NCBI GenBank assembly: GCA_019096195.1
Contig: JAGTXK010000239.1
Location: 744,001-808,000 of the forward strand
Reading direction: 5' to 3'
DNA from: Boletus sp. NGJ
Lineage: Eukaryota; Basidiomycota; Agaricomycetes; Boletales; Boletaceae
DNA: 64,000 nt
The position numbers and the translations under genes are program-made. Shown here piece after piece: positions 2,259 through 60,873 of the stretch. Numbering within the stretch: the stretch's first letter is position 1; each line of letters begins with the position of its first letter. The notes under the pieces were generated by a model that saw nothing but the letters and a program-made list of their open reading frames with translations, was not told where the DNA came from and searched no databases.

Positions 2259-2603
2259 ACCGGTATCATGTTCACTCGACAGGGAAGATGTAGCTAGACT
2301 GCAGTACAGTAATAAATTTTCCAATTCCGAGGATGATGAGACCAACATAGTTATCTAAAAAAAAGGGAAAGAAAAGAAAAGAAGGAGTGGAAACGAAACA
2401 GAGTGAGAGTAAAGAGGGGAGAGTGCCGTGTATTGGGAAATTGTACATGTCCATGTTAAATATGCCGCAGACTGACGGAGAAACAGGGAGAGAGACCCAA
2501 ACAAAGAGTACCAGAGAAGTAACACAACACGAATGTCCATCAGTGTAGAAAGATTTAAAGATGCCTCCCAACGAGCATGTCCAAACACCATTGTCGGGTG
2601 TGT
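2259..2603. other. Convergent intergenic spacer
   Basis: This 345-bp spacer lies between the stop codons of CCT8 and the convergent RhoGAP gene. It contains a purine-rich (A/G) run from about 2358 to 2420. I see no gene; it probably holds both 3' UTRs. Confidence 0.6.
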
Positions 2604-5600
2604 TCATTCCATATCCCCAACATGTGTCGATTGGGATGGAGCAATGTCTTCCTCTTCCTCTTCCTCCTCCAGGATTGGCGCCTCCATCTCATCCACTTCC
2701 ACATCATCTTCTGCCTCGTAATCTTCGTCAAATATGACATGGAACTACGTTTCGAGTCAGTATCACACTTGGATCCCTCGATCCAACAACGCACATGAGT
2801 GATGAGGGCCTTGACAAGTTTGTGCGTGTGTCCCATATTGGCGAGGATGAGAGCAAAGTCGTTTTGAGGTGCCCGTAACAGATTCGGACTGAACACGATG
2901 GCGAGCGCTTCCGCTGTCATGTGGTTTTGTTCTTCAAAGTCGGTAACTCTGGACACAACGATGAGATGAGAACACGCTCTTGTCCAAGAAAGAGACGCAC
3001 TTGTCAAGATGCTCAGCGACGCGCTTCAGTAGATCAAAGTTGGCATTTGGCAGCGCATGAACGACATATCGAATCCTCGACAACCGTTCATGCGGGTTTT
3101 CCACCTCTGCAACGACACAGGGAATCAGACGGGTATACAGGGCAGAGAAATCGATGTACTTATGGCCTCGATGATAGCGTAGTACGCAGACGAAGGAAAG
3201 ACGGGTTCTGGCAAAAGTCTAAACCACGACTTGATCAAGTCACCGATCGCATAGACATCCGCGCTCTCAGTAATGGGCATTTCACCCCTGTTGAATGCGT
3301 CGCGGAGGGCATTGATTTCAGAAGCAGCTCCTGCAATACGATCTAGAATACATCGATGTCAAGGACAGCTGCCTCCACGACGGAAAGACGGACTCACAAA
3401 TTCCAACTTCACTCAACCCACGGGTCTCTACTTCTGTCAAACAGCTCGCAATCACAGAAGGAACCGTGCCAGGCAGGATTTCTGCCCCATTGGCTTCACG
3501 TTCAAGTAAGAACTGGAGTTCCACACCGAAGACTAGGTAATATCTCATCAGTACCGTTATTTTCGGCCACGAGATTCGAGACAACACCTACCAGCAGTAG
3601 GGTCCCGGGATGCCGATGGTTCCCCGACAGGATCGATGATATGGTCAGACAACTGTGGCTTGGGAGAGTTACCGAGGTATGTCAGCCGCCGTTTCGCAGC
3701 AACCTTGGACACATCCGTGATCGTATCTATCCATCTCGTCATCTCCTGCCTCGAAAATGCCTGCAGCAAGTACTGTTCTCCCTCTTCCGTATCCAGCTGG
3801 AACATGTACGACCTCTCATTGTTGATAAAATGGGCCACTTTGGCGCCCACGACAGAGAGCACCAGCGACGGCTTCCCAGTCGGTGCGAAATCCAGCTCCG
3901 CAGGTGACTTTTTCGTGATCAACATATGGTCCGTAAACGCACTCGAGATGGGCCGCATCAACTGGAAGAACGCAGACGAGTAGCTCTTCTTCATACGATG
4001 TTGCTTCTGGGCCTGAGTCATCGGTTTTCGGGGTCGCATCACCTTGTTCAGGTATTCGTCCCGGCGCTCCATCCGCAACTGCTCCTGCTTCTTGTCTTTG
4101 CTCAGCCGATCATACAAGTACTTGTCCCGTTTGTTCTTCTCGTGCTGGAGTGAGACAAGACGTTGGAAAGGTCGCATGACCTTTTTTACAGAAGTAGAAC
4201 CACCAATCTGGGCTTGAAGGGCTTCTCGCTGCGCTTCCTCCTTGATACCGCGAAGATCAAAGTGAAGGGAGCCCACTTCCTTTTCGATAATGTTCAGGCG
4301 CTCGAAATCCCGTCGGTCGACATCTTCCCTAGAACGACCACGCATGCTGAGCAATATCGGTGTATTGAGTATGATGTCGCACAAGTGTCTTGAAAAGAGT
4401 ATCAGCACACTGTATAGACCATAAAATAGAAAAATTCTTACCTGCGTTTGTCCAAATTAATAATGGATTGCGAATCCTCCGATGGTATCGTCACGGTATT
4501 CGGTATACTGACGATCTCGAGTATACGTTCCAGAAGCCAACTAATATCGACGATCAACGGATCTCCATACAACTTCTTCGGAACCGTCGGTCGTGACAGC
4601 AGAGGGCCGAGGCTATCACACAAGGCACCACGGGCATTGGCCACGTTATGCCACGGTCGTTGATGCATCCGACTCTCGGGGCTAAGGATGGCGGCAGTAA
4701 GGACGGCTTCGACAAACGATCGTACCACAGGTCGTTCGTGGGGTTCGACAAATCCACTACCTCCCTCGAGACTGCGCATACGAGCAATCTCGATGCCTCG
4801 TAAACACAAGTCCATACGAGCCTGCCGGTTCCGAATGCCAAGTTTCGGCGCCACGAGTTTCGAGACGATCCATTTGCGGAGGATGTTGTATGCCCGTATA
4901 CAGCTCCGGACGCTTGGCGGAAGGAGACGGTAAACGGAGTCCTGAGAGTCGGTTATCATCGATGATGGTTCGACCTCCATAATATGGGAGTACATCGTCT
5001 GTATGTCGACGTCATCCAAGAAGCTGGTCTCCCGCCCAGAGAACCAACCCGTCCGGTCAGCGCCTTGTACTTCAAGCAAATCAGCAGTGATAAACAAATC
5101 CTGTGACAACAAGGGTCAATAGAGAACTTTTCATACCGTCGGAAGACACGCACTTCTTCCGAGACGTTACTGAATGCAGCATAACCCATGGTGTTCAAGT
5201 TCTCCACCAAATCTTCAGCAGTAACCCGATCCAGATCTGGCGCTTGATTCCCGAAATTTCGAATCTGTGGGAGTGTCCCTATAGATCGAGGGACAGCGGT
5301 GGCGAGGGCAGGCGGATGCAAGGTATGGGATATAAACGTCGACAACGCGTCCTTCCTCGTCACATCCAATCCATCCCAGGCTTGGGCAAGTTCAGCGTCA
5401 TCGTCGGGTGGAGGACAGTCGGGCACCGAACGATCCAACGGTGCTTCCAAAAAGGCTCTAACCAGCTCGTAGAGCTGGACCTCGTCTAGACAGTCCTGCG
5501 CACCCCCACCGGTGGTAATCCACTCCTTTACAGCCCCAAAGATTTCAGAACGGTACTGTACAACGTGAATCGGCGCGTTCGTAGACGTGTTGCTAGAAGG

Positions 5601-8600
5601 CCGACTTCCTACGAACCGTTTGCGCAAAAGCTACATCTCGTGAGCCGCGGATAAAATGTATGAAAGAAAACCCTCAAGCCTACCTCGAAAAATACGATCG
5701 GCGTCACGAAGCTGCGGAACACATTCCACCACACCCGCGCGAACTCGGAGTGATCGACGACCAAATCCCTGGTATTCCCATCTCGCAATGATGTTTGCCC
5801 GTTATCATCCGCCACTGCAACTGAAACGCCTTTGAGACCATGGATGAGTACGTTCACCAACCTATCCAGAGTCCCGGCTTGTACGAGTACTCGGATGGGC
5901 CGTTCGGTAGAGACCTCCGTCATGACGGGATGGTTGGCACGTTGGGATATAGCAGGCAGAGAGTTCCTTCGCTGCACGCTACTCTTACGTTCCAGACCCT
6001 GGGAAGAACCCGGTTTCACTCGGATGGACGGCGTACGAACCACCGTTCTATCGCTACCCGACGTTTCAATCGCCGAACTAGGGGGGCGAGACGGAGCACG
6101 GGATGCAGGCCGCGAAGCTGAACCTGGATCCTTGTCTGGTCGTGCTACGAGAAGTAACTCTCCGTCATACACAGGAATGGCGGTCCCTCCTAGATCCACA
6201 TCGCCGATTTTGAGTAGTTTATCTTTACTTGCTGAAGCATCATTTTGTCCGAACGGACGCAAAGAGGTATCGATGCTGCGAAGTTGTTGGAGCTCTTCCA
6301 CGGTGAGTTTTGTCGGCCCGCTCTCAAGACGACCTCTCCACACTTGACCCCGATCAATAAGTGAGACAGTGGGTAAAGGTTCGACAAAGAGAAGGGGAAC
6401 CAGAGGATGACAATGTGTGTGAGGAGGTGCTGTGGACTGGCTCCAGAAAAATGGCTCGAATAGTCCCTTCCTCCGCGGCTCGGCAGCCAAGGAGAGGGAT
6501 ACAAATTGCTCGACGCTAGCACTGGCATCAATGTCCATCTCTAAACCTTTACTTGATGGAACGTACCGCTGGAATTTCAGAGCAAACGCATTCTGTACGC
6601 CTTCCCCTCGAGACAAGTCCTCCCAAAGCGAAACCAACTTGCCAACGTCCGGCGAAAGCGAAGCAGTCTCGACAGGTGACCTGGAACAAAGCGCAAAGTG
6701 CGTCCGGAGACCTTCGAATATATTCTTGGCCTTCAGAAGCGGCTCGGCGGCCCAATATTCGTCCATTTCGTTTCGCGCGCGTTCCAATTCGTAGCGCACC
6801 TGCTCCTTCGTGTCTCCTCCCCACGCGGTCATCATTGGCTCTCTTGCAGTTGCTACATGCCCGTCGCTCTCGGGATAAATCCACGATTCGACAGCGATGA
6901 CACTCTGTCTATCAGCACGTCTCCAGGCTTTTGTCAACCTCGCTACAGGACGGGAGCACAACGCAGCCGATATCGCCTTCCAGGAACACTCATCTCCGGC
7001 AATACGGCAGAGTTCTGCAACCCTGGCCCAAATTGAGATAACCTCGGAGCGCGAATGCGTGCGAGCCGCTCGGTCAAAGTGTGAATTGTTTGCACTGCAT
7101 GAATCCGAACCAAGGATTTGTATCAGAAGCGTTCTCGTCAGCCAGTGAGGATGATCATCGCTGCCAAAGAACTTGGCCGAATGTGGTAACTCCGCATGGA
7201 TTTCATCGTCGGAAGCGCCTTGAGAAGTATCCGCTCCGAGGACATGCTCAGCTGTCAGGTTGTCGGGAAGATCCTGGAATGCACGTCGATGGAATGTTTG
7301 GAGACTGAAAGCGATCAGGAGAGGATCGAGCAACGAAAGGACCTCACGAGAGAAGCCATCTTGTGCGAGCATCGTCCAGATTCTTGGCGGTCGTTCCATC
7401 GCGTCGGTGAACGGAAGCTGTAGGCGCTGCTGTCGAGGATCGAGTAGCTTTCCGGTAGAAGTGGACGGAACGACCGGTGTTTCTAGCGCTTCCATTAAAG
7501 AAGTTATCTTTCCATCTTGAGGTCTTGGCGAGAATGTCCCGAGATTCGGAGAAATCGAACTCGTACCATCTATCTGCGGGGTTCCCGAGTTCGGGTTTGG
7601 TGACGGTGTATAGATCGCCTGGGTAGAGACAGACTTGGGCACACCACCATTAATGGAGAGAGGATTAATGCTGGAATTGGGAATAGTGCTGGATGCAAAC
7701 TCTTGCCAACCAGGCTCGTCAGATGGGTTACCATAATATCTGACATATTCTTGGGCCATCCAAACCACTCTGGCGCGTTCGGCCTCTTTGGTATTCTCCT
7801 CTGCTCCATTGACTAAATTGGAGCAAAGGCGGGTAAATTCGTTCTCAAATTTTGACCGGTCCACAAAGGGAGGCAGACAGAGGATGATCGTAGAGGAGAA
7901 GTCCTTCCACTCGGGACTTCTTCCATCTGTAAAACGCTCCGCAGATTCGGTGATTTCGACCGCGGCAGGAGCGGCGAACGTTGTCGCGAACACAGCTTCA
8001 TGTACGAGTGCTTCAAAGGTTCCCTTCACGATATGCCCTTCGCTGACCACTAGTTCGGGATGCGTCTTTCTTCCCCAATACGCCCGCTTCTTCCTTCCGA
8101 TAGACCCGAAACCATCTTCTCTCCCTTTTCCTGACCTCCCGACTTCCTCAAGGACTTCCGATTCCGCAGCCACCTCATCTTCGATGGTGGGTGGGACGAT
8201 ATCCGTAGGAAACAACTCCTTTATTGCAGCGCTTCTATCACTTGGTGGTTTATAGAAGTACAGCTTTGACCCTTTAAGCTCGGTTTTATAAGGTTTCCAG
8301 CCCTTTGCCAGCGTGAAATTGGCAGCCGTGCTGTAAGGTCTCTGATAAGCTTGTATCATCGGCGCAGGGTCTGTGAGACGATTGATGAATCCAGTGTTGT
8401 AGGTGATCTGAGACGTTCGTCTCGAGACGCTGCCTTTGCTTGCTTCTGGCGCATCGTTGGAGGTAGGTGGAGCTAGCAATGAAGAAGAGGGTTGGTTTGC
8501 AGAAGCTTGCGCAGCTAGATTGGGAGCCGAGTGTTTGTGAGAAGGCGCCGCGAGACTGAAAGGGAAAACCCCGCGACCCATTGAAGCGCCTGAACATTTA

Positions 8601-9597
8601 TCACTGTCGAGAGGTTTCATTGAGTCTCCTGACCCTTTTCTTTTAGGACTGTTTGGGGAGAGGCCGAGTTTGGAAGCAGAAAGCTTCGTCGGTAATCTAG
8701 GGGCGAAAGAGTGCATTCTAGCATTTGGCGTGGGTGGCGAATCGTCAGGCAAAACAAAGCCTTCCGAGACTGGAGAAGAAACGGAGATGGATATATTAGG
8801 TTCGTTCAGAATAAGAGAATCATCGGGAGGGCTATTAGATATATTGGCTGCGGCGGATGGAACAGACTGGAACGTTGGGCTTGCGGGAATGGCATTATTG
8901 GCGAAAGAGGTGGGATGCAGAGTGGCACTACTGTTGCTTCTATTACGGTACTCTTGTATCCTGTGCTGAAAGGAGACATCGACCGTGGCATGAGATAGAT
9001 CGGGGAAGCTTCTGAGGTCATCTGCAGACTTGGACCAAGTTTTGCGGGATATGTTGCGAAGGTCGCCAAGACCCCCGTCAACATCGGGAGAATGTTGTTG
9101 GGAAGAAGATGGGTATACTGAATTTAATTCGAGTGACTTCTTCGGTTTAAAAGTAAGTTCTGCAGTAGACCTGTATACGATGATGTCAGGAAGCCACAGG
9201 TAGGAAAAGCGACGTAATTAATCCGGATATAAGACTCTGCACGCGACCACAACAAATGGAGAAAGAGGGGAACTTACTTGGTAGGATCTATAGCATGGGG
9301 TTCTGACTGGAAGGAAGAGAGGATGGGACGGGGATCTGTGGGTCTGGAAATTTTTGGCCGCCTGATTGAACTGGTACTTGTCCTCGGTTCTGATCCGATT
9401 GAAATGGAGCGCGGGTCCGATGCCTTCTTCCCAAACCATTTTGAGGGTTTTGAAAGGAAATGGGAGATGCCCGAGGGAGAGCTTGAGCGTGCTTGTGGAA
9501 AAGCAACGTGGGCAGGGGAAGAGGGCATCGATGAGGGGAAAGTGGCATCCTGTGGGCCGAGAGAGTTTACGGATTGAGGAACGCGACGTGGAGCCAT
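2604..9597 (-). CDS. BEM2: BEM2-like Rho GTPase-activating protein (RasGEF-like, PH and RhoGAP domains)
   Basis: Large multidomain regulator that would switch off Rho/Cdc42-type GTPases in polarity and cell-wall control. The order from the N-terminus is: a Ser/Pro-rich disordered region starting MAPRRVPQSVN (exon 9597-9290, joined to an exon beginning at 9170), a long helical RasGEF/CDC25-like region within 8752-4440, a PH domain (about 4060-3640; MLITKK to RWIDTITDV) preceded by a charged coiled stretch, then RhoGAP (about 3560-2790). The RhoGAP part shows the arginine-finger block RIAGAASEINALRDAF and the C-terminal block FSPNLLRAP. The gene ends in a Glu-rich acidic tail with stop at 2604-2606; removing an intron after LITH restores this frame. 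Order and size (about 2,000 residues) match yeast Bem2p. Whether the CDC25-like part has exchange activity cannot be read from sequence. Confidence 0.88.
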
Positions 9598-21604: not shown

Positions 21605-25723
<4,119 letters not shown>

Positions 25724-38815: not shown

Positions 38816-39705
38816 ATGCAAAGGCAAGCTGTATTTTGGCCGGACACCGACCCTGGTATCTTCGGGGGTGCAAACCTACCACCCCTTCCAGATCTGACCG
38901 CCGAAGATGCGTCTACAGCAAACGACCAGAGCGACCAGCTTTCTTCAGGGTAAGGACGCTTCGCATCTTCAGCCGGATGGCTTCTTACGGGTTCGATGCA
39001 GCGAGCGGCTTGATTCTATCAGTATTGATATGAACTCGTCAGTTTTGCATGAAACGCCGGCGTACAAAACCTGACGTTGAGCTTATCTACAGGTGGCCAT
39101 CGATATTGGAGGAAGCGATTGCCAATGCGATACAGTCTGAGATTAATACAGTTAGTATTCCTACCCAGGAGATCGACTTGGCTTTTAACCTTCTCCCTAC
39201 GCAGGATGCGGGAATCCAGAATCTGGTAGAAGACACAGATCAGCTGGAACGTCGCACAAACAATAACCTGACGGACCCAACTCTACCTGGCGCTAGCACG
39301 ACTTCCCACTTCCCTCCTTCTGGAGCCCCACCTACACATTCTAACAATGTCCCGACCATACGTCCGGAACACCAGCCATATGTGTGCTCCTGGCATCATC
39401 CGGGTTCAGACACCCAGTGTAACCACGTTGCACCCAATAGGTCAACGTTACTTCGTCATCTTGGTGAAAAGCACCAAGTTTCCGGGGCTCCAGACGTATC
39501 GATCGTTTGCCAGCTGTTGGATTCCAAGACTCATTCGGCGTGCAACACGCCAATACAGCGAAGAAACTTTCCTCGCCACGCCGATATCCATTACTCCGTA
39601 CGCTACCTGTGCCAACACTGTCCCGCAAACAAGTCTTTCTCGCGCCAGGACAGCTGGTGGAAACACATCAGAACTATGCATGCACAAGCACCTCCGGCAT
39701 CATAA
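38816..39705 (+). CDS. C2H2 zinc-finger protein, accessory family member 4
   Basis: Starts MQRQAVFWPDTDPGIFGG, with an acidic segment DLTAEDASTANDQSDQLSS, then a splice near 38950. The main exons carry a Pro/Ser/Thr-rich linker (STTSHFPPSGAPP), then CSWHHPGSDTQCNHVAPNRSTLLRHLGEKH, CQLLDSKTHSACNTPIQRRNFPRHADIH and CQHCPANKSFSRQDSWWKHIRTMH, ending at 39705. The three modules align in order with those of the neighbouring family members. The N-terminal acidic segment could act as a transcriptional activation region, but that is only inference. The exact splice positions between 38945 and 39150 are uncertain. Confidence 0.7.
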
Positions 39706-47440: not shown

Positions 47441-48368
47441 CTAAGGCTGTTGGCCAGAACCGGACTGCGCAGGCTGCACCTCAGATAAGGTTCTATGTTT
47501 TGGGTTCCGGCACCTCTTTGCAGGGAAGAAACCGCTGAAGCATGTTGCAGACCTGTCCACGTTCATCTCGTCTATACGGTTTTGCTGATCTAGTCCTCCA
47601 TCTTTTTCGAGATGTATAAGCTCGTGTACGATATCCCATGCGCAATCGTCCGTATTGTCAAACCGTTTAGGAACGGCGCCTTCGTCTATCAGTTGCCGCC
47701 AGAACTCGCGTATGAGCTCGTCCTCCCTAGTTTCTGCCGCTGCTTTGTCCTTTGCGTTGTCCCACATGGTCGTGACTAGACGCGCTCGACCTAGAGGTAT
47801 ATTGCCGCAAAGCCGACGAAACATCTGGAGATTCTTAAGGGCAGAACCAGACATACGATTGTCGGTGATTCGGTGGAGGTAGATTACCCGACTAGCTTTG
47901 ACCGTGGCTGGGTACCTTCGTGTATGTTAGCTGAGTCGAAGATGTTCAGAATATGACCTACTCCCGGTTGAGCCAGTCGGCAATGTTCCTTATTACCTCT
48001 CGATCTGGCCGATACGCCTCGTCGAACCCAAGTGTGTCGACCAAGATGAGACCGTGATCATGTTACGTGACAGTGTATGTATGAGGTGACACCCTTGGTG
48101 TCGGGCTTGATACCACTAGCTCTGCGCCGCTCGGTCCCCCCCCGTGAGGGCGTTGATGAACTGGTGTTTCTCCCAATACAAAAATTCGACCACGAGAGTA
48201 CCATGGATTCACTCACATAGGTCTTCCCAGATCCTCTTTGTCCCAAAAGGCTATTTAACATATGTAGTTGCTTCAGCACGACGACACTACGACAGCCCTG
48301 AACAACACTCACGTAATGATAATGTCCTTTGGAGTTCCCTTGCAGCAGGTCCACTGGCTCTGGCACAT
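47441..48368 (-). pseudogene. AIG1-like P-loop GTPase, locus A, decayed
   Basis: Begins MCQSQWTCCKGTPKDIII and runs over an intron into the Walker A (G1) motif LLGQRGSGKTY. The next segment (INALTG ... GVTSYIHCHVT) and the G3 block (LILVDTLGFDEAYRP, DTPG changed to DTLG) lie in different frames; a run of seven G at about 48137 marks one shift and a second is needed before G3. The following exon keeps LHRITDNRMSGSALKNLQMF and LVTTMWDNAKD (G4-like TMWD) up to CAWDIVHEL. It then runs into unrelated sequence and stops, so the coiled coil and C-terminal tail of its paralog D are missing. Closest relative in the window is D, with which it also shares upstream DNA. Confidence 0.75.
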
Positions 48369-49707
48369 GGGTCTTTTTTGCAGAATTGTCGATTGTAAAC
48401 GCTGTCTGTTGGAAGGTAGAGACTAGTAGAAGGGCCCAGAGATGCAGAGATAGACATCCTCACACGTTTGTGCGGCCCCTCAAGCCACCTGCAACCAAAT
48501 GTTGATTTAGAGTTTAGATCCCATTCCTGCGAACAGGTGTCAACCTAGATCGGTTGTGCAACGAGTGTTCTGTGAGGCATACCCTGTTCTTCCCTGCGGG
48601 GGACCCTGAGATGACCATTGGGCTTGAGGGCATCGGGTATCCAGGGATAGATGGTGAGACAAACCGCTTGGAGACAGGAATGAATAAAACTGAAGTGTGC
48701 CATGAGGTACATACTTTCACTTGCCTTTTCACGGCACCGTGTTTGATCGACGTTGCGGAAATTAAACTCTCATAAGTTCTGAATAGGGACCAAACGCGAG
48801 TCGAACGTTGACCTCGAGTTGATAAGCATGCTACTTGGACTGTATACTGTGCTGTCGTCGTTCGGGGCCGATGTGAAGTATGGCGTCGAATGAGAGTTTC
48901 TGGTAGGGCGTGCTGACTAAATGCGAGGCTCGGGCAACATGTGCGGCGACTCCGAACGTTCGGACATTTTTCGACGAGCAAATGACTTGCTCCTTTTTCG
49001 ATCAGCAAGTACTCGGCTCACGATATTTCAGTTCAATGAGCAGCGGATAGTAACACTCAAACATTCAACAAAAACCACCGTTTGCCAGGTGTCTGGATCC
49101 TCAGTCACTGAAAACTGGCATCTACACTCTGGCTCGAATCTGGCTGTCAAGCCACTGGCCTTCCATGCATTCCTTTTCCACAGTGCAAGTTGCGATTTCA
49201 ATCTTCCTCGATTCATGAATTCTTGACGTTTAGCTTGTAACTGACTACTGCTACTAGGGATATGACCTGTCGCAGTCGATCCTGAACACTAAGGATCTGC
49301 GTGATCAGTGTGGCCAGCCTGTTCTGTACAAGGCTGGATGTCTCTGTCTCTCCACCCTGGCGTCGTGAACATACGGTGTCGCCTATACACTTGGCGGTCT
49401 CATCGTGAAAGGCACCTAGACGTCGTGCGCAGTACAAATGGTTCCAGTCCCCAACGTTGTCGTGTTTACCTTCGTGAACAGCACACGCAAAACGTCGCCA
49501 AGAGTGTTATAGGCGGAGACAAGCCTCAGCTTCCAGCTCGTGATACAGCACACGTAGGAAAAGGGAGTCGCAGGGACACTATTAATCGAGGGAAACCTGG
49601 TACTCGTGACTCTATGCACGTCATTCATTCGCCCATTTCACCAATACAGCACTGTATACTCATCGCGAATTCATCACAGTTCAACAAAGCATCGTGGCCA
49701 ATTTCGC
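48369..49707. other. Spacer with upstream DNA duplicated from locus D
   Basis: About 1.3 kb. Scattered stretches in 48460-48840 resemble the upstream region of GTPase D (53100-53760), for example TTGACCTCGAGTTGATAAGCATG against TTGACCTTGAGTTGATACGCATG at 53733-53755. No gene called; minus 48514-49008 is open but without motifs. Confidence 0.5.
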
Positions 49708-51654
49708 TCACGCCGCACGAACAAACAGCCAAGTATTAGCAATACTGAGAAAAAGGTTTGTCTCAGGGTGACTGGCGGTGGAAGAAGAGGAAGGGACACC
49801 TGCCGTTGTACCAAATCTCTCGGCCAACCACTGGAGAACACGCCTGATGATTGAGGTGTTCCGCTCTCGCACCTCCTCCAACGTCTCTCGTATCCGGGCG
49901 TCTAACTGGTCAAGGTCCTGTTGTAAGTCCTGGACGTCTTCCTCTGTGGCTGCCTGAGCTAAGAGGTCCTGAAGCACTTTCCTTCGCTTTGAAAGGAGCA
50001 CTTGCAACTGGTTATATGATGCCCTCCCAGTCTCAGGTTCGTTTGAACGTCTCGCCCGATCTTCGAGCTCTTCTTGGAGTCGACGTGCTTCACCTCCCAT
50101 GAGCTCGTTCACGATATCCCAGGCAGAAGAGCGCTGGTTTTCGAACCGCTTGAAGAGAGCGCGAACGTTTTGTTTTTCAAATTCTTCTTTCAGAAACCTC
50201 TCTCGCATCTCTGCCTCCGCTGTATCGTCGGCGCCTACCTCGTCCCACATGGTTGTCGCCAGACATATTTGACGCACAGCCACGCCGTTACAACGTTTAC
50301 GAATCGTTTCAATATGTTCATGCGGAGAGCCTCGAATGCGATTGTTGATGATGCGATGCAGGTAGATAATCCTTATTTCGATGTTGGGTTTATAGCTTTG
50401 CACATGTCAGAACATCGATGGCCAAGATTCCTAAAGTAACGAATGATCACATACTGATCGTCTAACCATCTGGCTACCAGCGTGAATATCTCTGCATCTG
50501 ACAATCTGGCGTTATCGAGTCCTGGAGTGTCAATGAAGTCCAACCATCGACCATCACGTTCTATTGTGCGGGAAGTGGGACTTGCAGTGTCAGTATTCAG
50601 GTCAGCTGCCCCCCTATCTCCCGGTGTCTCACCCAGGGCTTTGATAAACTGATAGCTCTCGAAATGAGACTCGAACGTCAAGAAGTGCTGGACTCACACT
50701 AGTCTTTCCAGATCCTATAGGTCCTATGACACTATTGCAAGACTTGTTCAGTATTGAGAAGGTCCCCGAATGACTCACTCACAGAAATATTGTGCTATCC
50801 AAGGTGCGATGGTCGGAAGCGGGATGGTCTAAGTTGTTGATATAAAGTAGTGCACAGAGGCGAAATGGCCAATGGCACGCACCTCGGATGAGTTCGTCTA
50901 CTGCATCCCAGGCAGAAGAAGGCTGGTTGTCGAGCCGTTTGAAGAGCGCGCGCACGTTTTGTTTTTCGAATTCCTCCTTCAGGAACCTCTCTCGCATCTC
51001 TGCTTCCGCTGCATCGTTTTCGCCTACCTCATTCCACATGCTTGTCACCAGACATATTTGACGCACAGCCACATCGTTACAACGTTTACGAAGCGTTTCA
51101 ATATGTTCATGCGGAGAGCCTCGAATGCGATTGTTGATGATGCGATGCAGGTAGATAATCCTTATTTCGATGTTGGGTTTATAGCTTTGCACATGTCAGA
51201 ACATCGATAGCCAAGATTCCTAAAGTAACGAATGATCACATACTGATCGTCTAACCATCTGGCTACCAGCGTGAATATCTCTGCATCTGACAAGTTGGTG
51301 TTATCGAGTCCTGGAGTGTCAATGAAGTCTAGATGTCGACCATCATGTTCTATCGTGTGGGAAGTGGGACTCGCGGTGTCAACATTCAGATGAGTTACCC
51401 TCCCATCTCCCGGTGTCTTAGCCAGGGCTTCTATAAACTGATAGCTCTCGAAACGAGGATCGAACGTCAAGAAGTTCTGGACTCACACTAGTCTTTCCAG
51501 ATCCTGTAGGTCCTATCACACTGTCGGCATTGTTTATCTATGTCGACTGACCGTTAAAAAATGGTACGCACACGAATATCATACTGGAGTGCAGGCTATC
51601 GTTTCTGGGTGTCGAAGGCTGGAAGCAATAGTGGAACGTGCAGTGGCCAGGCAT
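49708..51654 (-). CDS. AIG1-like GTPase with two tandem G domains (locus B/C)
   Basis: Exon 1 starts at 51654 (MPGHCTFHYCFQP). G domain 1: VVIGPTGSGKTS (G1), LDFIDTPGLDN (G3), IYLHRIINNRIRG, and LVTSMWNEV at the G4 position. After DAVDELIR a GTGCGT donor leads to a 46-nt exon (50783-50828) coding DHPASDHRTLDSTIF, which is then in frame with G domain 2: LVIGPIGSGKTS (G1), DTPGLDN (G3), LATTMWDEV (G4). A coiled coil (EEARRLQEELED... and LQQDLDQLDARIRETLEEV) and a tail IIRRVLQWLAERFG follow, ending at 49708. All phases match, so one protein of about 550 residues with duplicated G domains is likely. Alternatively these are two genes, but neither would then have both a proper start and a C-terminus. 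Function unknown; an AIG1/GIMAP-like membrane-associated switch by analogy. Confidence 0.75.
50094..51520 (-). repeat. Tandem internal duplication, 789-bp period
   Basis: Unit 1 at 50883-51520 and unit 2 at 50094-50731 each span the exons and introns from G1 to the SAWD motif. Introns are almost identical between units (about one difference in 60 bp for the intron near 50400-50460 and 51190-51250), so duplication or gene conversion is recent. Confidence 0.9.
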
Positions 51655-51903
51655 ACTATTTCATTGCAAATATTATTATTATATTTTCCACAAAGCGGCG
51701 AGCCTCAGGCTCTCGAACTGAAACGGTTTTAGATCGACATGTCAGCTACAGCGATGGTACAGAATCTACAGAACAGAATTGCGGATGCGAAAACAAGATT
51801 GGCCGAAAGCTTTAGCTGTATTAGTAGAAGATCTGGAGTAGACGGTCGATCGTGATGCCGAGTACCAAAAATCAACAAGATGTGGGGACTAACGTGCGGA
51901 CAT

Positions 51904-53043
51904 TTAGTAATCAAGCTTGACAGCTTGCTGTAAAACATGGCGTTCCATCAGAAATTCCATGCAAACGAGGCAGCGGGCTGGACTTACTGAGCGGGATTTT
52001 CGTCCAGACAGCCAGAGGAGAATACGCCTGGTGAGTGGGATCTTCATCACCCTCATCTCGTCGAACGTCTTCTGTAACTGTGCGTTTATTTTCTCGTATT
52101 CCGCCCGCAGGCTCCTTGCCAGATTCGGATCGTTCGCTAGTTTTGCCTCATCCGCGAGACCCTTAAGCGTCTTCTTCTGCTCTTCAAGGAGTTTCTGGAC
52201 TCGAGAGTATAGAATCTTGCCCGCCTCTGTCTCGCTTAGACGCTTGTGCTGTTCGACAAGTTCTTCCTGCAGGAGTAGCTCATCTCCATTGTTTCCCAAG
52301 TCTGCAATCTGGCGTACGATACTCCATGCACAATGTTGCGTGTTGTCGAACCGTTCAGCAACGGCGCCTTCATTCAGCAGTTTCGACCAGAACTCGTCTC
52401 TGAGCTGGGCTTCCCTACTTTGTGCCACTGCTTTGTCCTTTGCTTTGTCCCACATGGTTGTGACCAGACGCGCTCGATGTAGAGGTATATTACCGCAAAG
52501 CCGGCCAAACATTTGGAGATTCTTGTAAACAGAACCAGACACACGATTGTCGGTGATTCGGTGGAGGTAAATTATCCCAGCGGCTTTAAGCGTAGCGCCA
52601 TCTGGATACCTTTTTATATGTTAAAGGGGATGGAAAGTGTTCAGAATATGACCTACTTCTGCGTGAGCCAGTTGGCAACTAGCCTTAAAATTTCGGAATC
52701 CGGCCGATAGGTATCGTCGAATCCGGGCGTGTCGACCAACACAAGACGGCGACCGTCGTCCGAGATACAGTGTGGCGTGACGTTCTGGGTATCGGACCTG
52801 AGGTTAGCTGCTGTACGCTGTTCGGCATTGCCCATGAGGGTGTTGATGAACTGAACATTCAAATTAACATGCATATTCGACGTCAAGAGTACTACGGACC
52901 CACTCACATTACTCTTCCCAGATCCCGTTGGCCCCATAATCCTGTTTTGTAGAACTGCTTCAGTATGGGACGATAATCCTGGATGAGAATACTTACACAA
53001 TGATAAAGTCGTTTGGGTCTGCCTTGAAGCGGCCCTTGGTCAT
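51904..53043 (-). CDS. AIG1-like P-loop GTPase with coiled coil and basic tail (locus D)
   Basis: Starts MTKGRFKADPNDFII; splices into IMGPTGSGKSN (G1), then VQFINTLMG, G3 in RLVLVDTPGFDDTYRPD, then over an intron into IYLHRITDNRVSG and LVTTMWDKAKD (G4 position) and CAWSIVRQI. The C-terminal half is a long helix: LLQEELVEQHKRLSETEAG, LYSRVQKLLEEQKKTLKGL, LRAEYEKINAQLQKTFDEM. It ends in a basic amphipathic segment KIPLTRRILLWLSGRKSRS and a short tail to 51904. The fold and motif order match the AIG1/TRAFAC-type GTPases annotated in agaric genomes as G-domain proteins. The tail may bind membranes (inference). A short in-frame region upstream of the ATG lacks another ATG. Confidence 0.82.
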
Positions 53044-54318
53044 GATGCGTTTGGCAGAGTTGCTGACAGCGAACGTTGCCAGGTGGGAGAAGGCAGAATG
53101 GGAACTGCGGGTTCTCCAAAGTTGCACAATTTAGGCAACCTCTCACGTTTGTTCGTGCCCTCAATTGGGGCCTCGTTCGTGACGTATGGAATGATGCTTC
53201 GGATTCCGTTCCCATTGACGTATCACGTATGCGAACCTGCTAGTCGTGCAAAACACGTGTTCATACAACTGCAAGCTGAGCTCCGTTCCTTTGGCGTGTG
53301 GTACCCTGAGATGGCTGTTGGGCACAGGGCTGAAGGGGGTCGTCGAACCTCCAACTTCTACCGATTTTGGCCGGAATACTCTTAGTAGATAGCTTCCCAA
53401 CAATTTGAAGGGAGCGCTGTTCCTGTTAAGTGATGGTCAGAGAGAAATGAGTATCTTTTACCCGCTCTCAAATTATCAAGCGCCATACTATCAAGTGCGT
53501 GTACAGTACAGCCTGGACCACGTGGGTACGTGACACGACTTGGATGCGGTCTAACCTTGCAAAGGCCTTAGCATTAATTGGACACTGGGACTGATTGTTG
53601 GAGTGATTGAAGCTCTAATATGAATTGCGACGACTTGGAGAAGGCGAGCGGTCAAAGAATCAGTAATAACTTGTAGCCTTGGAGGTGTGCAGATAATCAG
53701 ATTGATCAACTTCGGGCAGGATGCGAACACGAGTTGACCTTGAGTTGATACGCATGTCATATTGGCATGTTAATGTATGAAGCTTCTGCATGGAAGCAGC
53801 ACCATGACAGCGAGCCGAAGGGTTTGTTGAGAGTGGAGCTGGGTCCAGGATAATGCAAACTTGTGGAGAGAAGCCCAAATAGAGTCCGACGGACACCTTC
53901 CGATAACTATAGGCTCTCCTTGTTGACGTACTCTTCTGAGACTTTCTCCTCTTGGCAACAATCCTCCCTACACGTTTATTTCGTGGTGAAACTCAAACAA
54001 ATTCCTAACGGAGTGTCACAAAGCAAGGGTCGAGGAGGTCTTTGCGTACAGTCTAAGCACATGGCTTCCCGCTGGCCCGGGTGAGGCAGGTGCTTATCAG
54101 CCCATCAAATGTCCGACGTTGGGCGTATGCAGTTCATGAATTAAACTGAAGGCGCTCATGACCTGTGGTTCCACGATCGTAACTTGACGCTCGAGCCTAG
54201 TGGTCAGTCTTTTTAGCTCGGATTTGCTCCCCTCGTTCCGAAACCATTGTAACCTGATATCCGTACTCGAAGCTCTTTTACACCTTCCCGCGTTATCCAT
54301 TCTGACTAGGAATCAGAA
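53044..54318. other. Divergent spacer between GTPases D and E
   Basis: About 1.3 kb between two divergent GTPase genes, so a shared promoter region. The D-proximal part is duplicated upstream of locus A. No gene seen. Confidence 0.5.
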
Positions 54319-56161
54319 ATGGTTTCTGGCAGGCGCTGGATCCCTTCATCGAAATCCAGAAGCGACCCCACACCCCAAACCCTTCCTACATCAAGCGACC
54401 ACCACGGTTCTATCGACCAAGATGACATAGTAATCGCGTATGTTTTCTTGGAGTTAAATTTTATTTCGCTTATCATGCATTCCATTAGGGTGATGGGACC
54501 CACAGGAGCGGGAAAGAGTTCAGTGAGTTACTCGTCGCCAGACTCTACACTCCACCGAGACCGAGACATTCATAGTTCGTGAACAAAGCGGCTGGGAGGG
54601 AGGAAGCCGTGGTAGGCTACAGCTTGACATCCACAACACGAGTGTTGCAGCCCGTCCGAATCCCATGTCCCCACCCTGACGGTCGTCGGGATATTGTCTT
54701 GGTAGACACCCCTGGATTCGACGACACACACCTTTCTGACACCCAGATTCTAAGAATCATAGCCAATTGGCTGAAGAGCACGTGAGTTGACCTGCGCGGA
54801 CCGAACTTCACCTGACTCGATAATCACAGGTACCAGAACAAGATCAAGCTCACAGGTCTTCTGTACCTCCACCGCATTCCAGACGTCAGATTGGCGGGAA
54901 CCCCTCTCAGAAATTTGAACGTATTCCAGGATTTGTGCGGTACAGAGAACCTGAAGAATGTTGTCCTCGTCACAACGATGTGGGACGAGGTTGAAGACCA
55001 GTCAGTTGGTTCCAAGAGGGAAGAGGAGCTTCTTTCGAGCTTCTGGAAGGGTATGATAGACCACGGTTCACGTACCTGTCGTTTCCAAGGAACCCGCGAA
55101 TCAGCTTGGGGGATCATTGATCATCTAAACTTGGAGGGATCTCGCGAGGGGCGCAATCCGCTGCGAATTCAGCGGGAAATGGTTGACCAAGAATTGCCGC
55201 TTCACGAAACAGCTGCAGGAAAAACCTTGCTCCGTGCCCTCGTCCAACTTGTGAGGGAGTTTAAAAGATCCTGGACAAACATGCGTAACGGAGTTCGTCG
55301 GGCAACCGGCCCAAAGAAGCCCACCCTTGGCCTTCGGCGGAATGCCATCCTCAGCAGGTCATCCACGCTCAGGTCTTCTCAAACTAGCTGGTCTGTGGTT
55401 TCGCCGACGGATACTGCAAGTATTGCCTCCCGCGATTCCGCATCTCTGCCCAGCCCGGCTGGGACCACTTCTTCGGGTTGTACTGCCAATGGTCGCCGAG
55501 ATGCACTCTTAGCTACGATCGCAGGCCTCAGGCTCGCCCATCAAGTGGCGGACATGGCCTCTATCCCCGTTGTCCGAGGAACAATTGGGACGGTCTTGAA
55601 AATAGCTCAAATGATCGAGGTCGGTGCTCTACCATTGACAACCGAGCGCCGTACTTATGGGTTTCTAAGGGAATGGGCGGCACGCATCATGCAATTACCC
55701 AGGTGGTAGAGAATTCCGGATGGCTGCTAGACGAGATTGCACAATATGCAGCGAAATCCCAGCTGTCCAGAGATATGAAGAAAACGCTGAGCGCTTTTCA
55801 AAGGTGTGTCACCTCGAATGGCTGCAACTAAAGGGATAATTACGACCACTTCAGAGAGCTCAACAAACTTCAAAAAGTCGTGACGAAGATTGAGGAAAGG
55901 GGCCACGTTGCTCGCTTCTTCCTGCAGGATACGGATCTCCAAGTGATCACGGCGTGCACCACTTCGATAAAGGAGATCTATGATAAGCTTGAAGTACAAT
56001 CATCTTCCACAACTGGTCCTCATTTCGCTGATGGTGTAGCACAGGTTAAGCTTGCCATGGACAATCGTCAGGCTATCGCACGTCTCGAAGATCAATTGAC
56101 GGCGCTTTGTAACAGCACAGCATTGGTGTGCCCATTTCCTAGATTCACTGGATATTTCTGA
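54319..56161 (+). CDS. AIG1-like GTPase fused to MLKL/HeLo-like helical domain (locus E)
   Basis: Six exons by eye (54319-54437, 54489-54522, 54576-54781, 54830-55619, 55670-55803, 55855-56161), about 529 residues. The G domain (about 38-250) has VMGPTGAGKSS (G1), IVLVDTPGFDDTHLSD (G3), LLYLHRIPDVRLAG, VTTMWDEVEDQ (G4 position) and SAWGIIDHL. Then come a short coil (MVDQELPLHETAAGK), a Ser/Thr-rich linker (about 300-340), and a helical C-terminus (about 343-510) containing ATIAGLRLAHQVADMASIP, VVRGTIGTVLKIAQMIE, KLQKVVTKIEERGHVARFF and IKEIYDKLE. The helical part resembles the MLKL-like/HeLo-like four-helix domain heading many agaric NLR and kinase proteins, including the P-V-x-G linker and the K-I-E-R-G-x-x-R block. 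This suggests a GTP-controlled membrane-acting cell-death or signalling protein. The fusion is read from spliced sequence and the domain call is from memory. Confidence 0.8.
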
Positions 56162-56512
56162 TCCTTGGGGCAGCGGCAATGCGAATGTCATGGAATGTTA
56201 GTCGTTCGTGAAGAATCGCAGGAAAACGGACAGCACTCCGCGACCACAAGTCAATCCGCATGATTACCAGGGGTCCACGTGCTTTCGGGTCGTGGAGCCC
56301 ATGCCCTTGAGATATCAGAGGTGCTGGTCGCCAGAGCAGGTCACTTTAACGCTATGATGCCCGTAATTTCATGCGCATAATTCCGATTTCGAACATACAA
56401 CACTATAACTTGTATTCTACGTACGGAGTCCCGTCATTCATGATCGTTGCAGTTGCCAGTGACGACGACGACGATTCCAAATACTGAGTATCCCAATCCA
56501 CTGGCATCGTGA
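56162..56512. other. Convergent spacer
   Basis: About 350 bp between convergent GTPase genes E and F. It holds a short (GAC)n-like stretch near 56461-56472. No gene seen. Confidence 0.5.
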
Positions 56513-57379
56513 TCAGTGTCTAAAAAGCTCTTCTACAGCTGTCCACGCTACTTCGGGATCTCCCTCGAAACGTCTTTGGTGTATTGAGGGCTTCCATCTG
56601 GATTTCCCCAAGGAGCCCATCTCGGCACAAAGCTTGGATCTGCGCTCTGTAATTTTCGACTCTAAGATGTTGCTCGAAGTCGTGTCATAGCTCATGACGA
56701 CGTGTACTCGCTGCGGGAGGTGGCTGTCACCGATCCGAGGAATAGTACCAGAGAACTCCTTGAGGTGGTTTCGCATCAATTCATGTGCAGGGTCGGTTTC
56801 GGCTCGATGCATGTAAATCACCCCGACAGACCGGGGCTGGTATCTGAGGGAGTATCGGCTTCAAATCCTAGCGAAGAGGCAGGGAGAAGTCTTACACTGT
56901 CCGGCTGAGCCATCTTTTAATCTCCTTCTTTGCATCAGGATGGTCGTATCCAGTGAGGAAAGAAGGGGTGTCAACGAATACGACGCTCTTCACCCCCTCT
57001 TGTAGCTCCGTATTTGCTTCGTCAGTCAGTTCACATCGAATCGCTCGAACCTCTCCAGTGAAGGGATGCGAGTCTCTGCTGACTCTGACTAAATCACTCT
57101 GCGTTGCTGCCTTGGTGAACTGTGATGGCGCTGAGACGAAACCAGATTCACGGGGAATATTTGAGCCTACACACGCACCCAACTTTTGCCTGATCCTGTA
57201 GGCCCCACTACACTGTTTGACGACTGGTTGTCAGGGATGAATGGAAACCACGACGACTCTTGAACGTACAATACCACGATATCATCTTTAGATATAGAAG
57301 ATGTCTGGGCAGAGGAGTCTGGCTTGATTTTGCCCCACAAATTAGCAAGCATGTGGGCGAAATCGTATTTCTTTGGCAT
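56513..57379 (-). CDS. Divergent AIG1-like GTPase, short form (locus F)
   Basis: Starts MPKKYDFAHMLANLWGKIKP; exon 1 ends DDIVVL and splices into VVGPTGSGKSW (G1). The next exon reads QFTKAATQSDLVRVSRDSHP, then SVVFVDTPSFLTGYDHPD, so G3 is DTPS rather than DTPG. After an intron come GVIYMHRAETDP and HVVMSYDTTSS where other members have TTMWD, so the base-specificity motif is not recognisable. It ends just after AWTAVEELFRH, without coiled coil or tail. Paralog of locus G. Either a specialised GTPase or one that binds but does not hydrolyse nucleotide. Confidence 0.75.
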
Positions 57380-57646
57380 GGTCTGAAAGGGCACAAAGGA
57401 CTCTGGAATTTGCTGTAAGAGCGCAAGTGGGATTGGATGCGGAGTGAAATGGAGTTAGTATCCTGTGGCCTAAGCTGATTTACTAGATGTCAACGGCCGA
57501 AAACGTTTACGATAATCGTTGAATTTTCGTATAGTATGGCATCCAGCTAAGTGTCGTATTTACTGGAGTACAGGTAGATCAAGGATCATGCAATGCATGA
57601 CCATACAAGTTGGAGTGTGTGATCCCCACCGACGGTAGCATGTCAG

Positions 57647-58537
57647 TCATCCCTGCCGATCTCTTTGGTTAGCCGTAGTTGTGAAAAGTTTCAGTACAGC
57701 GTCCCAAGCTTCATTTGGTTTGTTCTGCTGCAAATATTCATGATGTAAGGAAACACCCCATTCCAACTTCCGCCCCTGAAAGAAGCTCGACTGCAGTTTA
57801 TCAAACTGCTTCTGGAACATATCCTTGTGGAGGTTAATCTTCTCTTGCGGGGTCCGGTCCTCCACAGAGTGATGGGTAAGGATGCCATGCAATCGCATGG
57901 GGGAAGTGGACGGGAACTTGAAATCCCCTGGAAAAGTTGAGGCGAAAACATTCAAGTGCTTTTGAACGGGATTGGAACCAGGGGCGTTCGCGAGTCTATC
58001 CACGTATATGATCCCGAGACGAGTAGACTTGGATCTGAACGGTTGTCGGTTGTCGTCACGTTCAAAAAGCTGAGACCTTACCTTGACTCTGTCAACCAAC
58101 TAGTCGTATTCCTCTCCATTTCTGACTCTTTTTCAAGGTCAGCGAGAAAGGATGGCGTGTCTACGAATACGATGTAGTTGTATTCCAAGGCCCGCGAAGC
58201 AATTTTTGCGTCCGCACTGAGCTCGCATCTGATTGCCTGTACTTTCGTCTCGCTAGATCGAAGTTCTCTGCTAGGTTTGACGAGATCGCACTTCGTCACT
58301 GTTTGTGCGAACTGCGAGGGCACACAGAAGCTCGATTGTAACCTGACGAAGAGAAGGAGAAAGGTCGTACCCAACTCTTTCCGGCACCCGCAGGACCCAC
58401 TATACTGGACGACAGATAGCAAGTTAGTAAGGAATAAGAATAAATATCTTTCCGAAAACACACAATACCACTAAATCATCGGCGTTCAGTTCGAATGTTA
58501 TACCAAGTACGCGCTTGAACCAACTCAGCAATCCCAT
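57647..58537 (-). CDS. Divergent AIG1-like GTPase, short form (locus G)
   Basis: Starts MGLLSWFKRVLGITFELNADDLVVL, then splices into IVGPAGAGKSW (G1). It continues QFAQTVTKCDLVKPSRELR, KVQAIRCELSADAK and YIVFVDTPSFLADLEKE (G3 as DTPS). The last exon reads STRLGIIYVDRLANAPGSN...LHGILTHHSVEDRTPQEKI, where no TMWD or N/TKxD motif is visible, and ends soon after NEAWDAVLKLF. It shares with locus F the length, splice positions, DTPS and absence of a coiled coil. The N-terminal WFKRVLGITF is amphipathic and might touch membranes (inference). Confidence 0.75.
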
Positions 58538-59452
58538 ATCTTGACGAGGTCCGTCGCAAGGGTCGTATTTGCTGGCCAAGAAGTGGAAATCCGGGGGGAA
58601 GGAGGTATGGGCGGGATGAGATTGTACGGTAGTGCCCCGCCTGGTGCTGGCTGTACACGTTGCTTGAGTGAGACCATCCCGTCATCTCAATGTTAACAAT
58701 TTGTTTTAATAACCACCAGAATGCTGGTTATCATTCCAGAACCGCGGGTAGGGTTTATTATGATAGGATGAACGAATGGCAGCCACCCATGCCCAGAAGA
58801 AAAGCCTGTGGATATGTACGGCATAGACCACGCGCTACACACGACAAGTACTAACGTAACAGCCTCTATGTTCAGTACGGACTAATGCGGTTTTCTATTC
58901 TTAACGGACATTTGAGCATCTGGTCTGGCCAACAAGTTGGTAGGTCAATTCTGTACCTTCAAGCTTTCAAGGATCAGGATTGCAGCTAGATAAGTCCTGG
59001 GATATACCCGCGTCAAACCCACAGTTGTTGCGGAGCTGTGGATCAATGCGAGTTATGAATCACTCGAGGCTGCCTCATGTTCTACCTCGATTCACATAGC
59101 ACGCCTTCAGGGCCCTTACTTCTGATTAATATGGTTTTCGTCGACGGCCCAATCCCTGCCAGCGCTATTCAAATTTCCGGCACCATCCTCCATCGAGAAG
59201 AGACACCACCAGGTATGCAATTGATGGATGGATGTGTCCACACCGCATCCGTCTGTCAATCCTATCCTTGCCCCAGAACCATTCTGCTTACCCGTTCCCC
59301 CGCTAGCCACCACAGACGAAGGAGCAGCCCATCACGAGTCCTTTGTAAGGCAGAATCGACACTCCCATTAGCATCGAGTACAGACAAAAGTGCAATGGGA
59401 AGAGGGTGGAGGAAAGTCAGTAACGTTCACCGCCACTCACTCTCGTCAGCAA
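58538..59452. other. Divergent spacer between GTPases G and H
   Basis: About 900 bp between divergent genes. A frame at 59077-59466 (MFYLDSHSTPSGPLLL) overlaps the start of H in another frame and shows no motif, so I treat it as noncoding. Confidence 0.45.
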
Positions 59453-60873
59453 ATGCCATTTTTTAACTCCTCTCAGCAGCTATTGCCAAGATCAAAAAAG
59501 CGGACGAAAAGTGACACAACTTCGTCATCCGCCGAGGGAGAATACCATCCTTCGCCTCTGGCAGATACAAAGCAATACCCACCGGCAGATGATGTCCACA
59601 CAACGCCGGATTATGAAAATCTCGTGACGGTACCCTCCGCGCTTCCAACAATCGCAGAGAAACAACTTCAGACAGACGAGGAACCCACAGAGATGGATGA
59701 AGAGCCTCAGGAATCTCCTGTGTTGGTCTCTCCGATTCAGACCGATCGAAAGCGACACTCTATAAGACGATTTTTCGGCGAAGAGATCCCTCAGACAGCC
59801 CCGGGATCTTCTCAGGTATCCGACAATTCACCTGCGATGGTAAACATAAAGGAGCTTAAAACAGATGATATTGTGATAGCGTAGGTGATGATATCTCGAC
59901 AGTTGAATGGCTAACTTGATATCTCATAGTGTCATGGGTCCAACAGGCTCTGGAAAGAGTACGGTGAGACGAACAGCAAGTAGCGGAATCTGGTCACTCA
60001 TATGTCGTCAGTTCATACGCTGCGCTAGTGGACATGAGACTCAGGGGGTCGGCCATACGTTGAAATCATTTACAAGCCAGGTCCTTGGTATCAGATTCTG
60101 GGATGAGGAGAGTAAGCGACATGTAGTCCTGGTGGATACACCGGGCTTTGACGACACGTTTAAATCCGACCTCGACATTTTGAACATGATTTCTGATTGG
60201 CTCAACTCAAGGTAGTGTATGATGTCTACTAGGCCGCGTTTCTCATCCACATTCCCGTCCCCACAGTTATAACAACGACAAACTTCTCTCCGGGATTTTG
60301 TATCTCCATCGGATAACGGACAACCGCATGGCCGGTACGCCACTGAAGAACCTCCGCGTATTCCGAAAGCTCTGCGGAAAAGACGCTTTAGAGAAAGTTT
60401 ACCTCACTACGACAATGTGGGATGAAGTAGACCCAACGGTCGGCGAAAGGAGGTTGGATGAGCTCAGTTCGGATTACTGGAAGGCGATGATTTCTCAGGG
60501 AGCCCACATAGCTTGTTGCAGGAGTGACGACGACTCGCCGAAGGAGCTTATTCGACGTATCCTCGCCCAGGAAGGCGCTCGCAAGGTGCTGCTACAAGAA
60601 GAGATGGTCGAGCTGGGGAAGGAGCTCAGAGAAACAGCTGCTGGGCAACAACTGTATTCTCAGCTGGAGTTGCTGGTCGAGAGACAAACGGAGCTTCTAC
60701 GGAGGATCGACAAGGAGAGAAAGGCGGCTTCGGATCCAAACGTAGTGGTGGAACTCCAGGCAGAATATGATGATTTGCGGGAGCAGGTAGACGACAAGTT
60801 GGGTCAAATGGCAGAGCTGAAGTTGCCCCGGTTAACGAGATTTTTCCGTTTCTTTGTGCTGAGACAAGACTGA
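59453..60873 (+). CDS. AIG1-like GTPase with long disordered N-terminus (locus H)
   Basis: Exon 1 (from 59453, MPFFNSSQQLLPRSKKR) gives about 143 residues of Ser/Pro/Glu-rich, probably disordered sequence ending DDIVIA. Short introns lead to VMGPTGSGKST (G1), FIRCASGHETQGVGHTL, then HVVLVDTPGFDDTFKSDLD (G3), ILYLHRITDNRMAGTPLKNL, LTTTMWDEVDPTVGERR (G4 position). A coiled coil follows (LLQEEMVELGKELRETAAGQ, LYSQLELLVERQTELLRRI, LQAEYDDLREQVDDKLGQM), then the tail LKLPRLTRFFRFFVLRQD ending at 60873. The tail matches in place and character the basic hydrophobic tails of loci D and B/C. Membrane-associated switch by analogy to GIMAP/IAN proteins; partner unknown. Confidence 0.82.

Follow-up and report, generated by a model that had tools for sequence, protein, structure and literature searches.

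A GIMAP/AIG1-class GTPase with a C-terminal, possibly MLKL-related helical domain in the basidiomycete Boletus sp. NGJ

Known GIMAP/AIG1 GTPases and MLKL-like domains

Fungal HeLo/MLKL-like domains have been described at the N-terminus of NOD-like receptors (NLRs), in combination with kinase domains, or as separate effectors, some of which bear an amyloid motif (PMC9815663, PMC12881547). The MLKL-family homologs of Glomeromycotina bear Sel1 repeats (PMC8778642), and hundreds of basidiomycete MLKL-like domains are reported to be separate from NLRs, their control being unknown (PMC9815663). This work concerns a spliced locus (locus E) at 54319-56161 on the forward strand of a 64,000-nt stretch of Boletus sp. 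NGJ DNA (contig JAGTXK010000239.1, positions 744,001 to 808,000; the window), in which a GTPase of the GIMAP/AIG1 class is followed by a C-terminal helical domain that is probably homologous to MLKL and BaMLKL domains.

On the GTPase side, the closest described proteins are the septin-like GIMAP/AIG1 GTPases (human GIMAP2 and GIMAP7; Toc33/34), which share with locus E the G-domain fold, the motif order and the presence of several adjacent copies. Locus E differs from them in having TTMWD as its G4 motif, a YLHRI block between G3 and G4 that is not known from the human GIMAPs, and an extra helical domain of 190 residues. The AIG1-Hint proteins of Glomeromycotina, which also form an expanded family, likewise fuse a fungal AIG1-type GTPase to another domain, but this domain is Hint and not helical (PMC8778642). 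The prokaryotic conflict systems share the principle of a GIMAP/septin-class GTPase acting in effector-coupled immunity (PMC7159879, PMC8195603); unlike locus E they are multi-gene systems, and the term "MLKL" occurs 0 times in the accessible text of either paper.

On the helical side, the BaMLKL domains (PMC9815663) show the same predicted helix order, hG-h1-h2-h3-h4. By contrast, they are N-terminal in NLRs or separate, whereas the bundle of locus E sits C-terminally on a GTPase, matches below threshold and lacks the helix hM in its model. MLKL, HeLo/HELL (HET-S) and the plant coiled-coil-type domains (RPW8, Rx_N) are linked to locus E by weak MLKL_N and Rx_N profile matches.

No description of a protein combining an AIG1/GIMAP GTPase with an MLKL/HeLo domain was found among the matches listed in the literature searched, most subscription papers and the annotated fungal protein databases lying outside that scope. 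Neither "aig1" nor "gtpase" appears in the accessible text of PMC9815663, and "gtpase" is likewise absent from that of PMC12881547 and PMC10197012. The GTPase-bundle order is unreported in the searched literature, which does not make it unique, and it may well be annotated elsewhere. The BaMLKL motif search discarded hits longer than 400 residues and those annotated as P-loop NTPases (PMC9815663) and would miss locus E, because this has 529 residues and a P-loop GTPase; GTPase-bundle fusions may therefore be a blind spot of that search.

Gene structure of locus E

As the first-pass annotation of the window had proposed, locus E reads as six exons, which join in frame into 529 residues with a TGA stop at 56161. 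All of the elements named there could be located: G1 as GPTGAGKS (residues 43-50), G3 as DTPG (95-98), TTMWD (168-172), a Ser/Thr linker (residues 288-340, 42% Ser/Thr) and a mostly helical C-terminal part of about 190 residues. The G domain spans residues 36-255 and includes SAW at residues 211-213, a possible G5 motif by our own assignment (paralog H is without SAW). The features are as follows.

Exon 1, 54319..54437 (+): start codon, N-terminal stretch and first strand of the G domain; intron place matched in paralogs D and H
Exon 2, 54489..54522 (+): P-loop GPTGAGKS (54496-54519)
Exon 3, 54576..54781 (+): switch I region and DTPG (54705-54716)
Exon 4, 54830..55619 (+): G4 TTMWD (54972-54986), possible G5 SAW, end of the G domain, Ser/Thr linker (55332-55490), hG and most of h1
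Intron 4, 55620..55669 (+): donor GTCGGT, doubtful
Exon 5, 55670..55803 (+): end of h1, h2 and start of h3; the MLKL_N match (about residues 405-473) starts here
Exon 6, 55855..56161 (+): remainder of h3, HVARFF segment (non-helical in the model), h4, a long subsequent helix and the stop
C-terminal helical domain, 55491..56158 (+): residues 341-529, the span taking in introns 4 and 5; a candidate MLKL/HeLo-like domain

The two halves very probably belong to a single gene, because one open frame spans the region before G4, the linker and the second helix. This frame, 54816-55706, reaches from upstream of G4 across the linker to h1, 297 codons without a stop; a random frame would stay open over this length with a chance of about 6e-7, and a fairer figure, counting only the 125 codons past the G domain, is 0.0025. 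The fusion claimed by the first-pass annotation is thus supported, and codon usage adds weak support to it. In this test, a score in bit/codon, with six coding stretches of the window as its training set, was compared over six frames; the proposed frame is the best of the six for hG+h1 (+0.150), exon 5 (+0.107) and exon 6 (+0.072). The test discriminates poorly: within exon 4, the G-domain portion, though coding, scores +0.017 against +0.022 for one reverse frame, and the linker, though coding, scores -0.082 against +0.075 for one reverse frame.

The five introns measure 51, 53, 48, 50 and 51 nt, and paralogs D and H have introns at positions equivalent to those of introns 1-3. Of the donors, four are good (GTATGT, GTGAGT, GTGAGT, GTGTGT). 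Intron 4, with the poor donor GTCGGT and a putative branch site picked by eye (CTTAT), is the least certain part of the gene model; it has the length usual in the family and is favoured but not proven, because the codon-usage method is weak. Other models of intron 4 (giving 518 or 526 residues, among others) were set aside in favour of the 529-residue model, which has the 50-nt intron and the weak codon-usage support. An in-frame ATG lies at 55554-55556 (+), at residue 362, with G at both -3 and +4 and directly before h1; a start at this codon would produce the canonical arrangement of a HeLo/MLKL executioner.

The GTPase half

The GTPase half belongs to the GIMAP/AIG1 class, and the name "AIG1-like", used in the first-pass annotation, is a fair one because the ten best structural matches are GIMAP or Toc33 proteins and the best viral match is an AIG1 fragment. 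Foldseek with the full AlphaFold2 (AF2) model against the PDB returns GIMAP7, GIMAP2, GIMAP1 and Toc33 at ranks 1-10 (E 1.6e-7 to 2.1e-6). Other G proteins follow closely (LeoA at rank 11, Era at rank 16), and the matches have high root-mean-square deviations and target TM-scores of 0.46-0.59. The G domain is modelled with a block confidence (predicted local distance difference test, pLDDT) of 60-84 in 17 of the 19 blocks of residues 31-220, and of 32-47 in residues 221-260. In the viral library, the best match is to a fragment of an AIG1 protein (E 1.6e-6).

In Pfam, residues 1-287 match MMR_HSR1 (E 1.6e-8), Dynamin_N (1.1e-6) and AIG1 (1.4e-6), all above cut-off. AIG1 (PF04548; gathering score 27) reaches 28.3 bits with residues 1-287 but 26.9 bits, under its cut-off, with the full protein, with which Dynamin_N scores 25.0, also under its cut-off of 27. 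Over four members of the GTPase family, MMR_HSR1 matches 4/4, AIG1 3/4 and Dynamin_N 4/4 at E<=1. Searched against the PDB, a profile of these four members ranks EngA/Der first, followed by septins, IRGs and GIMAPs; within the best 60 of its 254 matches, GIMAP7 has the longest coverage (positions 38-267, E 6.4e-6). The best NCBIfam match of locus E is Era (3.6e-7), and every one among the matches listed is under cut-off. The order of the G motifs is P-loop, DxxG and an [NT]KxD-like G4, in which the Lys is replaced by Met and the Asp is kept.

Neither NACHT nor NB-ARC is among the 17 Pfam families that match locus E at E<=1. The only repeat-type family at this level is PALB2_WD40 (0.15, chance level), so the layout of a fungal NLR is not seen. 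In the viral contig collection, tblastn confirmed no homolog of the full protein, of the GTPase alignment (A2) or of the C-terminal domain, and no homolog of the GTPase alignment was confirmed in prokaryotic genome contigs.

The C-terminal helical domain

The C-terminal bundle is probably homologous to MLKL/BaMLKL domains. Among 24,736 Pfam families, MLKL_N (PF22215) ranks first for the domain in all three models of intron 4 (E 0.0057, 0.020 and 0.0082) and also for both fragments of the h2-h4 core (E 0.0029 and 0.0024), where Rx_N, a family related to MLKL, comes second (0.046 and 0.070). The match is more telling than a best-of-library hit, because MLKL had been named in the first-pass annotation before any search was made. 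MLKL_N matches neither the reversed domain nor any of nine shuffles of it. The read-through model also matches PF17111 (0.092), a family formerly named HeLo-like.

AF2 places six helices in this part, at residues 339-363, 366-384, 389-411, 417-442, 453-478 and 485-514, with low pLDDT; they follow the order hG-h1-h2-h3-h4 and then one further helix, h1 beginning at residue 366. The predicted order from hG to h4 agrees with that of BaMLKL, in which a four-helix core is preceded by an added N-terminal hG (PMC9815663). The eight most hydrophobic 19-residue segments of the protein all lie in residues 345-383, that is, in hG and h1. The linker (residues 288-340) has a pLDDT of 23-32.

The surrounding GTPase cluster

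Locus E is one of eight related GTPase loci within about 13.5 kb (47444-60873), the others being A, B, C, D, F and G on the reverse strand and H on the forward strand. Those with modelled extents are listed here.

Paralog B, 49708..50731 (-): GTPase without the helical domain of locus E; the model leaves out the 5' end
Paralog D, 51904..53043 (-): GTPase without the helical domain of locus E
Paralog H, 59453..60873 (+): GTPase without the helical domain of locus E

The region looks like a birth-and-death cluster with several degenerate members. Locus A has DTLG in place of DTPG and a tail out of frame relative to D, its P-loop remaining readable (GQRGSGKT); C is 90% identical to B over 300 nt and has no tail; F and G read DTPS and lack TMWD. 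The last two give weak tblastn values (E 0.010-0.20) and were retained, by eye, on the P-loop, the DTP motif and the layout. Two further tblastn matches, at 15.1 kb (E 0.77) and 29.7 kb (E 0.25), were discarded as chance.

The C-terminal domain has no second copy in the window, where tblastn of its three pieces returned only the domain itself and chance matches (E>=0.22). In its place, the end regions of B, D and H contain a helical stretch rich in charge, together with a short segment that is basic and hydrophobic: KLPRLTRFFRFFVLRQD in H (about 60820-60870, +), KIPLTRRILLWLSGRK in D (about 51993-52044, -) and NTSIIRRVLQWLAERF in B (about 49812-49859, -). These segments, missing from locus E, are possibly membrane-binding.

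Proposed mechanism

We place at a little under an even chance the reading that locus E makes one protein in which a GIMAP/AIG1-class G domain and a flexible Ser/Thr linker precede a bundle, most likely BaMLKL-related, that damages membranes under a GTP switch. GTP binding induces dimers of GIMAP2, and several GIMAPs are anchored to membranes through C-terminal hydrophobic segments (PMC8201404). With a membrane-active bundle at the GIMAP-like C-terminal end, GTP-driven assembly would trigger assembly of the bundle.

The computations show the gene model, the motifs and class of the G domain, the open frame that connects the two halves and the paralog cluster, whereas homology of the bundle, membrane action, cell death and every switching step are inferred. 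At rest, the bundle would be monomeric or packed on the G domain. Once triggered, perhaps by a non-self cue, by a partner GTPase encoded in the cluster or by linker phosphorylation, the G domain would bind GTP and dimerise or oligomerise in the manner of GIMAPs, gathering the bundles at a membrane. The gathered bundles would then assemble and damage the membrane, resulting in death of the fused or infected cell, and GTP hydrolysis would reset the switch, possibly stimulated by the paralogs that lack a bundle. How h1 would act is conjectural: it might insert as a hairpin with hG, be freed by cleavage of the linker, or belong to a short form started at the ATG at 55554 (residue 362).

Such a fusion would supply a testable controller and would link a GIMAP-type GTPase and a necroptosis-like executioner in one protein. 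A GTPase switch would then stand beside NLRs (through an amyloid signal or fusion) and kinases as a governor of MLKL-type executioners. A broader proposal, that clustered and fast-changing GIMAP-class GTPases form a further fungal control of such executioners, one bearing the C-terminal killing bundle and the others setting the GTP switch, is doubtful.

Alternative explanations

A number of observations weigh against an MLKL-type executioner. The MLKL_N match is under the gathering score of 27 for the domain (16.6 bits, E 0.0057), the core (17.8 bits, E 0.0024) and the whole protein (14.3 bits, E 0.029), and it is limited to profile positions 38, 39 or 43 to 108 (about residues 405-473, the later helices only); hG and h1 alone matched no relevant Pfam family. 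The coiled-coil tail of paralog B, which is unrelated, scores better by chance than the domain does against MLKL_N (ZnuA 1.3e-4, Apolipoprotein 8.2e-4), and the reversed domain picks up five families of helical or unknown type at 0.021-0.058 (DUF2408 0.021). Rx_N ranks third, fifth and third in the three intron-4 models, behind for example Syntaxin_2, and the superfamily does not stand out in them; MLKL/HeLo is absent from the PDB sequence matches of the domain (n=7) and the core (n=6), which are weak and to designed or unrelated proteins. The bundle is poorly modelled, with a mean pLDDT of 45.9 for the domain alone and block means of 37-54 over residues 341-520 of the full model, where the stretch corresponding to hM, the short BaMLKL helix between h3 and h4, is non-helical (443-452, HVARFF). 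Foldseek of the domain alone returned nothing at E<=0.001 (best E 0.14) and no MLKL or HeLo structure in the best 50 of 284 matches, a search of limited weight given the poor model. The hydropathy peaks at a modest 1.14. HeLo and MLKL executioners lead with an N-terminal helix, whereas the bundle of locus E is C-terminal (residues 341-529 of 529) and its h1 comes after the G domain and linker. HeLo proteins depend on the extreme N-terminal helix (PMC12881547, PMC10197012), the release of which cannot work unchanged in locus E because the domain is C-terminal and h1 starts only at residue 366. Of the MLKL/HeLo-like domain claimed in the first-pass annotation, the helix order and the best Pfam family stand; the score below the gathering threshold (E 0.0024-0.029), the low-confidence model and the missing structural match leave the identity in doubt. 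That annotation would have been given up for want of both a bundle and a profile match; a low-confidence predicted bundle and a sub-threshold profile match are both there, each of them weak.

The same observations can be read as a generic helical extension of the dynamin stalk, GBP or GIMAP tail type, serving in scaffolding or tethering, so that locus E would be a membrane-remodelling or trafficking GTPase that kills nothing and the MLKL_N match would be a coincidence of composition. The chance matches of the B tail and of the reversed domain, the low-confidence bundle with no MLKL structure in the best 50, and Dynamin_N in 4/4 family members all speak for such an extension, which has an appreciable, if minor, probability; a family named beforehand that comes out best in 3/3 splice models and 2/2 core fragments argues against it, as do the number and order of the helices and the position of the most hydrophobic stretch in hG/h1. 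The bundle could also be an adaptor that forms no pore and makes homotypic contacts with the MLKL-like domains that NLRs or kinases carry elsewhere in the genome, the GTPase regulating or decoying these executioners. A C-terminal domain ill-suited to extruding an N-terminal helix would suit this role, MLKL-like domains are reported to be abundant in basidiomycetes (PMC9815663), and the paralogs vary and some have decayed; the single copy of the domain in the window and the purely inferred interaction speak against an adaptor, which is improbable. Most improbable is that locus E is a decaying copy or pseudogene, or that intron 4 is wrong, with a frameshifted protein ending near 55709 after h1, or with the ATG at 55554 starting a separate protein. 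The poor GTCGGT donor, an exon-4 frame that stays open across intron 4 to 55706, the weakness of the codon-usage test and the degeneration seen in C, F, G and the A tail favour such a reading. Against it stand the codon-usage score of -0.139 bit/codon for 55620-55706 in the frame of exon 4, the positive scores of exons 5 and 6, each best of six frames, and the 50 nt of intron 4, in line with the other four introns (48-53 nt).

Other genes in the window

Pfam places a TCP-1 chaperonin (863-2088, +), a RhoGAP (2558-3025, -), a PH domain (3560-4456, -) and a RasGEF (5612-9217, -) in the region 863-9217. Pieces of a P-type cation ATPase (Cation_ATPase, Hydrolase and Cation_ATPase_C) lie at 21663-23465 (-), and an open reading frame at 39034-39702 (+) has a single weak C2H2 zinc-finger match (E 0.00065, under cut-off).
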